Position numbers and translations under genes: made by a program. From Oscillospiraceae bacterium (GTDB lineage Bacteria > Bacillota > Clostridia > Oscillospirales > Acutalibacteraceae): 64,000 bases of DNA. Positions 15,355 through 19,235 of this stretch are shown in pieces (within the stretch, counting starts at the first letter, position 1; each line of letters starts with the position of its first letter). The notes beneath the pieces are model-generated. The model was not told the DNA's origin and did not search any database. It was given only the letters and a program-made list of their open reading frames with translations. The stretch is taken from the NCBI GenBank assembly GCA_022650485.1, contig JALCPP010000004.1:1-64000 (forward strand), given 5' to 3'.

Positions 15355-16005
15355 ATGCTGATCGCACCTTCCATGCTGGCTTCGGATTTTTCAAAACTGA
15401 GTGATGAAATCATTCGAATGGATATTTCCGGCGCTGACTGGATTCACCTTGATGTGATGGACGGACACTTTGTGCCGAACCTGACCTTTGGCCCGCCGAT
15501 TGTCGCCGCGATGCGCCCGTATACGGACAAGCCGTTTGACGTGCATTTGATGATTGACGAACCTTTGCGCTACGCACCGGCCTTCTTAAAGGCGGGCGCC
15601 GATATTGTGACATTTCACGCGGAGTCGCTTTCCGACCCCGGTCAAACCATAGAAACCATTCGGGCGGGCGGAGCAAAGCCCGCTATGTCTGTAAAACCCG
15701 GCACACCCGTGCAGAAGATTTTTCCCTATTTGGACCGCCTGTACATGGTGCTGGTCATGACGGTGGAGCCCGGCTTCGGCGGGCAGAAATTTATGCCGGA
15801 CATGATGGAGAAAGTACGGCTGCTCAAAAAGGAAAAGCCGGACCTTCTGGTCCAGGTCGACGGGGGAATTCACACGGAAACGATCGCTCAGGCGGCTCAG
15901 GCCGGTGTTGATATCTGCGTTGCGGGGACCGGTGTTTTCAAAGCACCGGACGCTGCGGAAGCGATCCGGAATTTGAAAGCGGCGGCCCAAGCGGCCCTGA
16001 AATAA
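15355..16005 (+). CDS. rpe: Ribulose-phosphate 3-epimerase
   Basis: A 216-residue TIM-barrel enzyme that interconverts ribulose 5-phosphate and xylulose 5-phosphate in the pentose phosphate pathway. Family blocks are clear: APSMLASDF at the start, LDVMDGHFVPNLTFGPP with metal-binding Asp and His, FDVHLMI, TVEPGFGGQKF, VQVDGGI and AGTGVF. GGGAGGAG lies before the ATG. In many Firmicutes rpe follows rsgA and thiN; here it heads a unit with an Rnf-like cassette 15 bases downstream. The shared transcript is inferred from the lack of any terminator. Confidence 0.96.
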   Translation: MLIAPSMLASDFSKLSDEIIRMDISGADWIHLDVMDGHFVPNLTFGPPIVAAMRPYTDKPFDVHLMIDEPLRYAPAFLKAGADIVTFHAESLSDPGQTIETIRAGGAKPAMSVKPGTPVQKIFPYLDRLYMVLVMTVEPGFGGQKFMPDMMEKVRLLKKEKPDLLVQVDGGIHTETIAQAAQAGVDICVAGTGVFKAPDAAEAIRNLKAAAQAALK

Positions 16006-16020
16006 CGGAGGGACGGAACC

Positions 16021-17049
16021 ATGCCGCGCGGAGTCAAACTGGATTTAGAAAAGGAACCTTCGCTGAAAGAACAAGTGATCACAATTCCGGCACCCAAAAC
16101 GCTGCCGGCACCGAAGATGTTTGCTTCGCTGCGCAAAAAAGCAGCTGCGGCAAAGGTCCTTGAAAGAGCGCGAATTGCGGAAATTGTGGATGAACTGGAC
16201 GGCGAACCTCTGTACAAAAAGCTGAAACGTTTCGTATCGGCGGATGCGCTTACGCTGGTTGCCGTCTGTTTTGACGAGGACCCGATGACTTCCGCCACGC
16301 AGGCGGTGTTCCGGGAAAATGCGGCGAAGGTGCTGGCGGGGCTGGATGCTGCCGCCCATGCGTGCCGCGCCGTTTCCAAAAAAATTGCCGCCGCGTCGCG
16401 CGAAGAATTTCGGTACGTACCCAAGAACCGTGCGGGGGTTGAGCTTTTAACCGCCGGGGATCGCTATCCCGCGGCGGTTCTTCTTCGCAGAAAGTGGATG
16501 GAAAAAGGCAAATCGGCCGGTTTCATCGGCGGGCAGGCATGCGCGGCACTGGCGGATGCCGTGACCCGCGGGCTGGCGCAAAACGAAACGGTGGTAACGG
16601 TAGCTGGAAACGGAGCTTCACGGTGGGTGAACTGCCGGGTGCGTATCGGAACGCCGGTGCGCGATGTGCTGGCGGCCGGAAAACTTCTGCCGGAAACCTC
16701 GGTGGTGGCGGTGGGATCTTCGGTGAACGGCAGAAGCATCACCAACCTTTCCGAGCCGGTCACAGCGGCGACCCGCTGTATCATTGCCATGAAAGGGCTG
16801 CCCCGGCGCAAAACGCTGCCCTGCGTTGGATGCGGGCGGTGTGAACGCGCCTGCCCCCGCGGAATTATTCCGTGGATGATTTTGCAGCAGCTGGAATTGG
16901 AAGAACCGAATCCATTTCGTTTGTTTAATGTAGAGCACTGCATTCAATGTGAGAGCTGCAGTATTGTGTGCCCGTCCGGAATTCATCTGGTGGATGCGGT
17001 GCGGCGTGCGGAAAAGATTAAGGAAGGCAGGGAAAATAAAGGATGCTGA
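16021..17049 (+). CDS. RnfC-like protein, shortened, with two 4Fe-4S motifs
   Basis: A 342-residue homologue of RnfC, about 100 residues short of the usual 430-450. The C-terminus keeps two full 4Fe-4S motifs (CVGCGRCERACPRG and CIQCESCSIVCPSG, about residues 265-320), and the middle keeps the VVTVAGNG and VRIGTP blocks of the complex I 51-kDa/SLBB fold. The N-terminal barrel is reduced to a short stretch (RGVKLDLEKEP...), and the glycine-rich NADH/FMN motif is not found. It is the first of four overlapping Rnf-like genes. Either it no longer takes electrons from NADH, or it uses another donor. The ATG follows GGAGG. Confidence 0.82.
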   Translation: MPRGVKLDLEKEPSLKEQVITIPAPKTLPAPKMFASLRKKAAAAKVLERARIAEIVDELDGEPLYKKLKRFVSADALTLVAVCFDEDPMTSATQAVFRENAAKVLAGLDAAAHACRAVSKKIAAASREEFRYVPKNRAGVELLTAGDRYPAAVLLRRKWMEKGKSAGFIGGQACAALADAVTRGLAQNETVVTVAGNGASRWVNCRVRIGTPVRDVLAAGKLLPETSVVAVGSSVNGRSITNLSEPVTAATRCIIAMKGLPRRKTLPCVGCGRCERACPRGIIPWMILQQLELEEPNPFRLFNVEHCIQCESCSIVCPSGIHLVDAVRRAEKIKEGRENKGC

Positions 17050-18017
17050 AGAACGCGGTTCCTCCGTATCTGAAAAGTGAATTTACCGTTTTTTCCATGA
17101 CGCGCAGCACACTGCTGGCACAGCTTTCCCTGCTGGTCGTGCCCATCCTCTATTACGGATTCCGCCCGCTGGTCGTCGCCGGGGCTTCTATGCTGACCGC
17201 CGTAGCCTGCCATGTCCTTTTCTGTCTCATCCGCGGAAAGAACATTTCTATTACGGAAATATCTCCGCTGGTGACGGGGTTGATGATCGCACTGCTTTTG
17301 CCGATGAATGTGCCGCTCTGGCTTCCCTGTATCGCCACCGCGTTTGCCATGCTGGTGGCTCGGGAACCATTTGGCGGCTTCGGGCGCAATCCGTTCAATC
17401 CGGCTGCCGCCGGGTTGGTTTTTGTCACCCTCTGCTGGCCGCGGCTGGTGTTTTCTTATTTTGACCCGTCCCGTGCGTCGTCGTTTCCACTGCTCGGGGC
17501 AGGGACTTATTCGATGGTTTCATCGCCGTCGCAGGTGCTGAAGCAGGGCTTTAAACCGGATATCCTGCCGCGGGAAATGCTGTGGGGAAATTTTGCAGGC
17601 CCGCTTGGCACAACGGGCATTTTAATCATCGGGGCCTGCGGCATTCTGCTTTTTTTAACCCGGGCGGCGAAACCGGAGGCAACACTCTGCTTCCTCGGCG
17701 CGGCCGCTTTGGCTGCGGCGCTGTTTCCCCGTATCCTGTGTAGCCCGCTCACTTCTGTAAAATACGAGCTTTTGTCCGGCTCGCTCTTTTTCTGCTCCGT
17801 ATTTCTGGTGACGGATCCGGTAACGTCGCCGCGCACGCTTCCGGCAAGGTGCCTTTACGGCGCGTTTGCCGGCGCGATGACCATGGTGTTCCGATGGCTG
17901 GGAACTTATGAGCAGGGAGCCTGCTTTGCACTGCTGCTGGCAAATGCCGCCGCTCCGCTGATGGATTCCGCCGTGTTCCGTTTGCGCGGCTGGGAGGGAA
18001 AACCAAATGAAGAATAA
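17043..18017 (+). CDS. RnfD-like membrane protein
   Basis: A 324-residue RnfD/NqrB-family protein with many membrane helices and the conserved loop REPFGGFGRNPFNPAAAG. The site that in RnfD carries covalently bound FMN, (S/T)(G/A)ATP, reads VSSPSQ here, so the flavin-bearing Thr appears replaced by Ser. LWGNFAGPLGTT and LVTDPVTSP match other family blocks. It overlaps the RnfC-like gene by 7 bases and the next gene by 11 bases, so the four genes are tightly coupled. Whether it carries flavin cannot be decided from sequence. Confidence 0.85.
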   Translation: MLKNAVPPYLKSEFTVFSMTRSTLLAQLSLLVVPILYYGFRPLVVAGASMLTAVACHVLFCLIRGKNISITEISPLVTGLMIALLLPMNVPLWLPCIATAFAMLVAREPFGGFGRNPFNPAAAGLVFVTLCWPRLVFSYFDPSRASSFPLLGAGTYSMVSSPSQVLKQGFKPDILPREMLWGNFAGPLGTTGILIIGACGILLFLTRAAKPEATLCFLGAAALAAALFPRILCSPLTSVKYELLSGSLFFCSVFLVTDPVTSPRTLPARCLYGAFAGAMTMVFRWLGTYEQGACFALLLANAAAPLMDSAVFRLRGWEGKPNEE

Positions 18018-18648
18018 AAGGCTTTTTCTGCGCGCGGCGGTTCCGATTTTTCTGAACGGCCTGCTGTTCAGAAACCCCGTGCTGATTCGTGCGCTTGGCA
18101 TGTACCCCATCGTTGCGGCGGCGTGGAACACAAAAAACGCGGCGGGGCTTTCCATTCTCTTTCTGGCTTTGTCGCTTTCGTCGTCGCTTTTGCTCTGCCT
18201 GACCGGAATGCTGGTGCCGCGCTGGTTCCGCCCCGGGCTGGTTCTGCTGGTGTCCGCCGCGCTTTATGTTCCGGCCGGGGCATTGGCGGACTGGCTGGTT
18301 CCGAATTCCATTTCAAACCTTGGAATGGCGGCCGGGCTGATGATCTGCAACTCCGTTATCTTCTCCCACGCGGAGGAATACGCGCCGGAGCATGTGGCGG
18401 TCGCGGTTGCGGCGGATGCGCTGGGCTGCTCGGCAGGGTTTGCACTGACGGCGTTTTTGGTTGCGTCGGTGCGCTCGGCATGGCTGAACGGATTCCACCT
18501 GCCGTTTGTCGGCTTTGTTATGGGGCGTGCTTCCGACTTTCCATTTGCCGGCTTTCTACTGCTCGGGTTTTTGGCCGCTCTGGTTCAATGGATGAATCAC
18601 CTGCGGGCGCGCCGCGGTGCCGAGCGCAGCAAGAGGAGGATGCCGTGA
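18007..18648 (+). CDS. RnfE-like membrane protein lacking cluster cysteines
   Basis: A 213-residue protein of the RnfE/NqrD family with six membrane helices. Orthology is shown by the NGLLFRNPVLIRALG start and the HAEEYA block. In functional RnfE the motif LGxCP and a later NC supply cysteines for the intramembrane [2Fe-2S] cluster; here the first reads GMYP (Tyr33) and the second NS (Asn115-Ser116). It starts inside the end of the RnfD-like gene. RnfG, normally encoded between D and E, is missing. The protein keeps the fold but probably not the cluster. Confidence 0.83.
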   Translation: MKNKRLFLRAAVPIFLNGLLFRNPVLIRALGMYPIVAAAWNTKNAAGLSILFLALSLSSSLLLCLTGMLVPRWFRPGLVLLVSAALYVPAGALADWLVPNSISNLGMAAGLMICNSVIFSHAEEYAPEHVAVAVAADALGCSAGFALTAFLVASVRSAWLNGFHLPFVGFVMGRASDFPFAGFLLLGFLAALVQWMNHLRARRGAERSKRRMP

Positions 18649-19235
18649 TGTTTTTAAAACTGGTTTTAACGGCACTTCTGGCCGTCGGTACGGAAAATCT
18701 TCTATTTGCGGGAGGCGCCGGGTTCAGCCGGGCCATGCGCGCCGCGCAGCGTCCGGGCAGCATCGGCATTTATTCGCTGCTGGTTACATGGTTTTCTCTG
18801 GTCTCCGGCTTTGCGGGCATGTGGCTTAACTCTTTTCTTCCGGCCTATGGCCCGAAGATGACGCTGAGCTCGGCCTGCCTTGCGGGTGCTGCTGCGGCCG
18901 CTTATCTGGTGACATATATCGTTGCGCGCCTTGCGCTGCCCAGAAGAATGATGAAAAAAATCGAGCCGTTTTTAGCGCCGGCGGCTATCAATACGATTGT
19001 GCTGGCACTGCCCTATGTGCAGCGCAGCTTTTTGTTCGGACCGGCTCAGACCGCAGGATATGCGCTGGGCTCAGGAGCCGCGTTTTACCTTGCCTCTGTG
19101 GTTCTGATGCACGCGCAGGCGAAATGCCGCAATCCGGATATGCCGAAAGCATTCAGCGGCCTGCCCGCTTCGATTTTATATATCGGCATCCTGTCGATGG
19201 CGTTTGCCGGATTTGCCGGTTCGAGGGTGTTTTGA
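18648..19235 (+). CDS. RnfA-like membrane protein lacking cluster cysteines
   Basis: A 195-residue RnfA/NqrE-type protein with six membrane helices and the C-terminal FSGLPASILYIGILSMAFAG block typical of RnfA. The LGLCP motif is replaced by GGAGF (about residues 22-26), and the NC pair in the second half-repeat is replaced by NT (Asn115-Thr116). The ATG overlaps the stop of the RnfE-like gene (GTGATG) after AGAGGAGG. No RnfB gene follows; a strong terminator comes at once. With the E-like partner it would form the membrane core without the usual [2Fe-2S] cluster. Confidence 0.8.
   Translation: MFLKLVLTALLAVGTENLLFAGGAGFSRAMRAAQRPGSIGIYSLLVTWFSLVSGFAGMWLNSFLPAYGPKMTLSSACLAGAAAAAYLVTYIVARLALPRRMMKKIEPFLAPAAINTIVLALPYVQRSFLFGPAQTAGYALGSGAAFYLASVVLMHAQAKCRNPDMPKAFSGLPASILYIGILSMAFAGFAGSRVF

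Follow-up and report, generated by a model that had tools for sequence, protein, structure and literature searches.

What would a set of Rnf-derived membrane proteins do once most of the sites that carry electrons through Rnf are gone? The question is raised by positions 16021-19235 of a 64,000-nucleotide stretch of an Oscillospiraceae genome (the window: contig JALCPP010000004.1 of assembly GCA_022650485.1, positions 1 to 64,000). Four overlapping plus-strand genes there are homologous to rnfC, rnfD, rnfE and rnfA, and we refer to them as the C-D-E-A cassette. The overlaps are 7 nt between C and D, 11 nt between D and E, and 1 nt between E and A, and C starts 15 nt past the end of rpe. There is no rnfG or rnfB in the window locus. 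A preliminary description, made from the sequence alone, had reported this gene content, and Pfam and NCBIfam matches bear it out, with all four proteins scoring under the curated NCBIfam Rnf cut-offs. At another place in this genome (G000:C8) there is a complete ApbE-rnfCDGEAB operon, which has C, D, E and A genes separate from those of the cassette. Our answer is that the cassette would be an alternating-access ion or ion-coupled transporter, a second Rnf-derived complex without redox-driven pumping; we put this at an even chance.

The features on which the argument draws are listed below. Relatives of the cassette are called CDEA-type if they include the C gene and DEA-type if they do not; aa stands for amino acids, TM for transmembrane segment and FMN for flavin mononucleotide.

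15355..16005, plus strand: rpe, ribulose-phosphate 3-epimerase (PF00834, 1.7e-72), conserved neighbour 5' of the cassette
16021..17049, plus strand: RnfC-derived subunit (C), 342 aa (rnfC TIGR01945, 2e-30, C-terminal half only)
16822..16854, plus strand: first 4Fe-4S motif of C, CVGCGRCERAC (read from the sequence; all Cys present in 25/25 CDEA-type members)
16939..16971, plus strand: second 4Fe-4S motif of C, CIQCESCSIVC (read from the sequence; all Cys present in 25/25 CDEA-type members)
17043..18017, plus strand: RnfD-derived 10-TM-type subunit (D), 324 aa (PF03116, 4e-67; AlphaFold2 model)
17397..17399, plus strand: D N119, at the column of N123, a riboflavin ligand in Acetobacterium woodii RnfD, kept
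17523..17525, plus strand: D S161, at the column of Thr156, to which FMN is attached; surrounding flavinylation motif lost
17826..17828, plus strand: D D262, at the column of D249, a riboflavin ligand in A. woodii RnfD, kept
18007..18648, plus strand: RnfE-derived subunit (E), 213 aa (PF02508, 8e-20; profile match to RnfE 7zc6_E, 7e-40)
18103..18105, plus strand: E Y33, in place of the TM1 [2Fe-2S] Cys25 (profile alignment)
18229..18231, plus strand: E R75, at the column of R67, part of the Na+ gate ion pair, kept
18352..18354, plus strand: E S116, in place of the TM4 [2Fe-2S] Cys108; preceded by the conserved N115
18373..18375, plus strand: E E123, aligned with E115 (Na+ site and ion pair), kept
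18648..19235, plus strand: RnfA-derived subunit (A), 195 aa (PF02508, 4e-11; profile match to RnfA 7zc6_A, 5e-29; AlphaFold2 and Foldseek)
18726..18728, plus strand: A S27, in place of the TM1 [2Fe-2S] Cys25; the next residue is R28, an invariant Glu in the DEA clade
18990..18995, plus strand: A N115-T116, the Asn kept (Na+ ligand N112) and Thr in place of the TM4 [2Fe-2S] Cys113

Cofactor Sites of the Cassette

The ligand columns of the intramembrane [2Fe-2S] cluster were fixed by profile alignment to solved RnfA and RnfE chains. In the A subunit GICP has become GFSR and NC has become NT; in the E subunit GLCP has become GMYP and NC has become NS. All four Cys ligands are replaced, at the places where the preliminary description had put the losses. 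In D, the flavinylation motif Dxx[ST]AT is lost. The corresponding segment reads YSMVSSPSQ, the Asp and the flanking residues being gone. The attachment column holds Ser, as it does in 64/66 DEA-type and 20/25 CDEA-type members. The earlier claim that the FMN-carrying Thr motif had disappeared thus holds for the motif, but a nearly invariant Ser still occupies the Thr column. In the RnfD encoded by the canonical operon of this genome (L039 5755-6711), the segment is DAVTTASPL, and the FMN-attachment position is Ser, not Thr.

The C protein retains 8/8 Fe-S Cys, with both CxxCxxCxxxCP motifs intact. Its glycine-rich FMN/NADH motif, GLGGAGFP, is degenerate and reads ELDGEP, and no family match to the N-terminal domain (barrel) was found in its 342 aa, in agreement with the first account of this protein. 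Both riboflavin ligands of RnfD are present in the window; their counterparts in A. woodii, N123 and D249, have been probed by mutation (PMC11889175). The cassette had been described as having lost its known redox sites. This is right for the [2Fe-2S] cluster, the flavinylation site and the FMN/NADH motif, but D still has its riboflavin ligands, and the clusters of RnfC persist. In the window, D may still receive a redox input from the cytosol, which is not possible in the C-less DEA clade.

Distribution and Independence from the Canonical Operon

The sample consisted of 40 relatives searched, a genome_contigs scan and targeted fetches; the scan was seeded with a narrow D alignment, and its 80 loci are biased to DEA-type members. 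The non-canonical cassette occurs at ~97 distinct loci in the gene order rpe-[C]-D-E-A, with the C gene in ~27 of them and missing from the other ~70. None of the ~97 cassettes includes a G or B gene. The carriers are apparently Oscillospirales, and one gene order is found across several GTDB families; record titles name Oscillospiraceae, Ruminococcaceae and Clostridia genomes (gut, rumen, digesters), plus Soleaferrea, Avimonas and Onthovicinus. In every canonical CDGEAB operon of the order whose motifs were inspected, the cluster Cys are kept. A tree of D splits the canonical sequences and L031 from the rest with 99% SH-aLRT in a quick search, in a topology with several long branches whose inner order is unsure. 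L142, a row labelled DEA within the canonical group of that tree, is a mislabelled canonical operon. A plasmid origin was considered and dropped, as the plasmid collection gave weak rpe matches only.

The cassette is independent of the RnfG and RnfB of the canonical operon because four near-complete genomes carry it without either. For INDEPENDENCE, these genomes (G335, G030, G241 and G253) each carry exactly one Rnf-Nqr pair, that of the cassette. Completeness is 99% for G335, which has one of the versions closest to that in the window, and 95-98% for the others. No FMN_bind protein (RnfG) and no RnfB over cut-off were found in any of the four, and ApbE was not found in G030, G241 or G253. 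RnfB profile matches that appear in genomes lacking canonical rnf are ferredoxin-domain matches only. The cassette thus does not need the canonical RnfG or RnfB, nor, in three of these genomes, ApbE. The presence of rnfG and rnfB elsewhere in a carrier genome had been named in the preliminary description as grounds for giving up its reading. Both are indeed found in the window's genome, but the four genomes take the force from that objection. A separate observation concerns G330 (family f18), where 15 FMN_bind matches in one genome suggest extensive extracytosolic flavinylation.

Selection and Fold

Values of omega, the ratio of nonsynonymous to synonymous divergence, were obtained by NG86 between congeners of the window's genus, where the synonymous divergence is near 1 and the values are approximate. 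They are 0.13-0.19 for C, 0.14-0.17 for D, and 0.16-0.26 for both E and A; the canonical rnf genes give 0.04-0.13 and rpe gives 0.09-0.16. The cassette is clearly under purifying selection.

The AlphaFold2 model of D (predicted local distance difference test, pLDDT, 87) matches Azotobacter vinelandii RnfD with Z 36.1 and A. woodii RnfD with Z 35.1, and RnfD/NqrB structures as a group with Z 29-36. A match to AmtB (Z 13), and to ammonium/urea transporters in general (Z 11-13), is real but far under that to RnfD/NqrB, and D was not taken for an ammonium/urea transporter. For A (pLDDT 81.5), the best Foldseek matches are RnfA and NqrE, with probability 1.00 and TM-score ~0.64-0.68; the Foldseek E-values are 0.004 and up. 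Neither fold by itself says anything of function. The expectation that selection has kept the fold while the electron path is broken, in an operon that is not dying, is borne out by these models, the omega range of 0.13-0.26 and the ~97 loci.

Residues Kept and Lost

A study of A. woodii Rnf places Na+ near the cluster, with RnfA N112 and backbone atoms as its ligands and RnfE R67-E115 as its gate, and has RnfA K32 and R154 in contact with RnfB (PMC11889175). The window keeps all four proposed Na+-path residues, RnfA N112 and RnfE R67, L103 and E115. Across the cassette family N112 is invariant (83/83), R67 is found in 86/89 members, and L103 in 78/88 with conservative changes. E115 is kept in 61/63 DEA-clade members as well as in the window. 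RnfA T110, T111 and E88, also named in the A. woodii study, are not kept; T111 acts via its backbone (PMC11889175). In the DEA clade the RnfB-contact residues K32 and R154 have dropped to roughly the 3rd percentile of conservation.

In that clade the lost Cys have mostly given way to Ser/Thr. Both former Cys columns of A are Ser/Thr (61/61 and 59/59), and the residue next to the TM1 column, formerly a Pro, is an invariant Glu (61/61). The former TM4 Cys column of E is Ser in 52/63. The pattern is selective: the electron path and the RnfB docking surface are lost or drifting, much of the ion path is kept, and the cluster site is rebuilt. DEA-type E proteins (e.g., L033 6225-7427) also have a new near-invariant TM4 Cys (R/H-C-E, 61/63) beside the kept TM1 Cys; it is found only in the clade without RnfC.

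RnfC has 8/8 Fe-S Cys in 25/25 CDEA members, and their D proteins have the two riboflavin ligands in 23/25 and 24/25. The riboflavin Asn of D is Val in 56/66 members of the DEA clade; it and RnfC are lost together there. The Asn persists in L135-L137, which are divergent loci that lack C.

A Proposed Ion Transporter and Its Alternatives

The RnfA/E heterodimer, which in Rnf is an inward-/outward-open switch around the [2Fe-2S] cluster and the proposed Na+ carrier, is kept. The cluster site has turned polar, mostly through Ser/Thr for Cys beside the old Asn residues, with the added Glu in the DEA clade. Hydroxyl and carboxyl groups having taken the place of the cluster, this switch could itself be a binding site for Na+ or H+. 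The result would be a carrier of Na+/H+, a gated conduit for them, or a transporter that couples these ions to a solute, and the ion gradient already present would drive it. The RnfC clusters and the RnfD riboflavin retained in the window's lineage may tune the carrier by the cytosolic redox state. RnfA/E has been likened to alternating-access symporters in a review (PMC12174285). We infer assembly as one complex, ion transport, and its direction, substrate and gating. The fuller version of this proposal, a widespread Oscillospirales transporter family that arose when a redox-driven alternating-access pump exchanged its RnfA/E [2Fe-2S] cluster for a Ser/Thr/Asn(/Glu) ion site and became gradient-driven, with an RnfC/riboflavin redox gate kept in the window's form, is plausible, though we give it somewhat less than an even chance. 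The preliminary description had offered an ion channel, a transporter or a redox sensor; the Na+-path residues and the Ser/Thr/Glu at the cluster site narrow this in favour of ion or ion-coupled transport via A/E.

Several points weigh against the transporter proposal. The Na+ path through RnfA/E is debated, and others put the path in RnfD (PMC12174285). RnfE E115 is found in just 6/25 CDEA members. Where the DEA clade has its invariant Glu, the window's genus has Arg, and the E TM1 Cys, Tyr in the window, is still present in 56/64 DEA-clade members. Since Glu/Arg and Cys/Tyr differ between lineages in this way, there is no one ion-site chemistry for the whole family. Serines at helix breaks can be structural. 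The models are of single subunits (D and A), not of a complex.

Four other explanations were weighed. The co-occurrence of intact RnfC clusters with the riboflavin ligands of D, and their joint loss in the DEA clade, is what one would expect of a redox sensor or redox-gated regulator in which cytosolic electrons pass from RnfC to the riboflavin and shift D-E-A or a partner into another conformation, without vectorial transport. We regard this as unlikely, although it has a real chance. Sensing cannot be the core job because most of the family, ~70 loci, conserves D-E-A without C and the riboflavin Asn; the degenerate FMN/NADH motif of RnfC also weighs against this reading. A slim chance goes to a membrane scaffold, in which D-E-A would anchor, in the place of RnfG, a one-TM envelope protein with a DUF4015 glycosyl-hydrolase-like domain. 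Such a one-TM protein follows A in ~60 loci, with DUF4015 in ~34, and LCP/transglutaminase genes accompany one clade. The partner is not beside the cassette in the window's genus or in L138 and L139, its TM is not detectably related to that of RnfG, and the retained Na+-path residues would be left unexplained.

That the cassette is an alternative redox complex borrowing RnfG, RnfB and ApbE in trans is conceivable in the window's genome, where the complete operon is available, but the loss of all four [2Fe-2S] ligands and of the RnfB-docking residues, together with the four genomes devoid of RnfG and RnfB, largely refutes it, and we consider it very improbable. Least can be said for a decaying duplicate under relaxed selection. 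Within the genus, the cassette's omega is ~2-4x the canonical value, and the RnfC barrel is gone; however, the low omega, the open frames and overlaps, the single gene order over several GTDB families and the invariant residues refute it, leaving this explanation a negligible probability. Of all these readings the ion transporter has the best support, and its chief competitors are the redox sensor and the envelope scaffold.

Relation to Known Systems

The cassette shares with Rnf (A. woodii 9eri, Clostridium tetanomorphum 7zc6, A. vinelandii 8ahx) the order of the C, D, E and A homologues, the D and A folds, the RnfC 4Fe-4S motifs, the D riboflavin ligands and the A/E Na+-path residues. It differs from Rnf in the absence of RnfG, RnfB, the [2Fe-2S] ligands, the D flavinylation motif, and the FMN/NADH motif and barrel of C. 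Na+-NQR has a common core with the cassette in NqrB/D/E, the relatives of D, E and A, but the cassette is without NqrC and NqrF, and NQR keeps its [2Fe-2S] cluster and covalent flavins. NqrA is a relative of RnfC that likewise lost cofactor sites (PMC4014512). Two-subunit Nqr/Rnf-like flavinylated systems (PMC8238504, PMC10979944) resemble the cassette in an RnfD-like subunit with the FMN site lost. Those systems comprise an RnfG-like flavoprotein and a fused NAD-binding (NqrF-type) domain, with no E/A, whereas the cassette has E/A and neither of the others; its 324-aa D holds the PF03116 domain only, with no NqrF-type domain fused. Partial Nqr/Rnf-like systems described to date retain a flavoprotein partner. 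Amt/Rh and urea transporters are distant kin of RnfD/NqrB and are like D by fold only, while the cassette D comes with E and A.

A probable member of the same family that has been described is rnfDEA of Faecalibacterium duncaniae A2-165 (CG447_09840-830), a second, G/B-less rnf cluster beside rnfCDGEAB. A 2024 study lists the two side by side and treats both as oxidoreductases (NADH:ferredoxin oxidoreductase) (PMC10781979). Apart from that mention, our literature searches turned up no account of a cofactor-less C-D-E-A set. Genomes annotated with rnf, apparently including those with the second 'rnf' operon of Faecalibacterium, may not conserve energy by those genes, and such a misreading would affect metabolic models of gut and rumen fermenters. 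Whether the Na+ route in Rnf and NQR runs through RnfA/E or RnfD is disputed (PMC12174285, PMC11889175). A natural complex with the proposed RnfA/E ion path but no electron path would make ion transport testable without redox chemistry.

Neighbouring Genes

The basic one-TM protein lies directly after A in its ~60 loci (L134-L137, L090 and L030 among them). Divergent families are included among those with the DUF4015 domain, and in ~27 loci there is an anchor alone. The LCP and transglutaminase genes lie 3' of the cassette. No DUF4015 over cut-off was found in G000, G001 or G003. A search for the partner elsewhere in the window's genome gave a sub-threshold match only, to a different GHL10-like protein. 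The one-TM protein was also tried as an RnfG homologue and rejected, since hhalign detected no kinship between it and the anchor of RnfG. It would take the topological place of RnfG, but it stands outside the transporter proposal because it is missing in the window's genus.

On the 5' side, rpe adjoins the cassette in 82/91 D loci. L037 (4162-11705), which belongs to a different family of the order, has a complete canonical rnfCDGEAB after rpe, and this arrangement is possibly the ancestral source of the rpe-linked cassette. A MecA-like adaptor gene, absent in the window, is found in most C-less relatives; in 57 loci it sits between rpe and D in antisense orientation (e.g., L036 6306-6911, minus strand).

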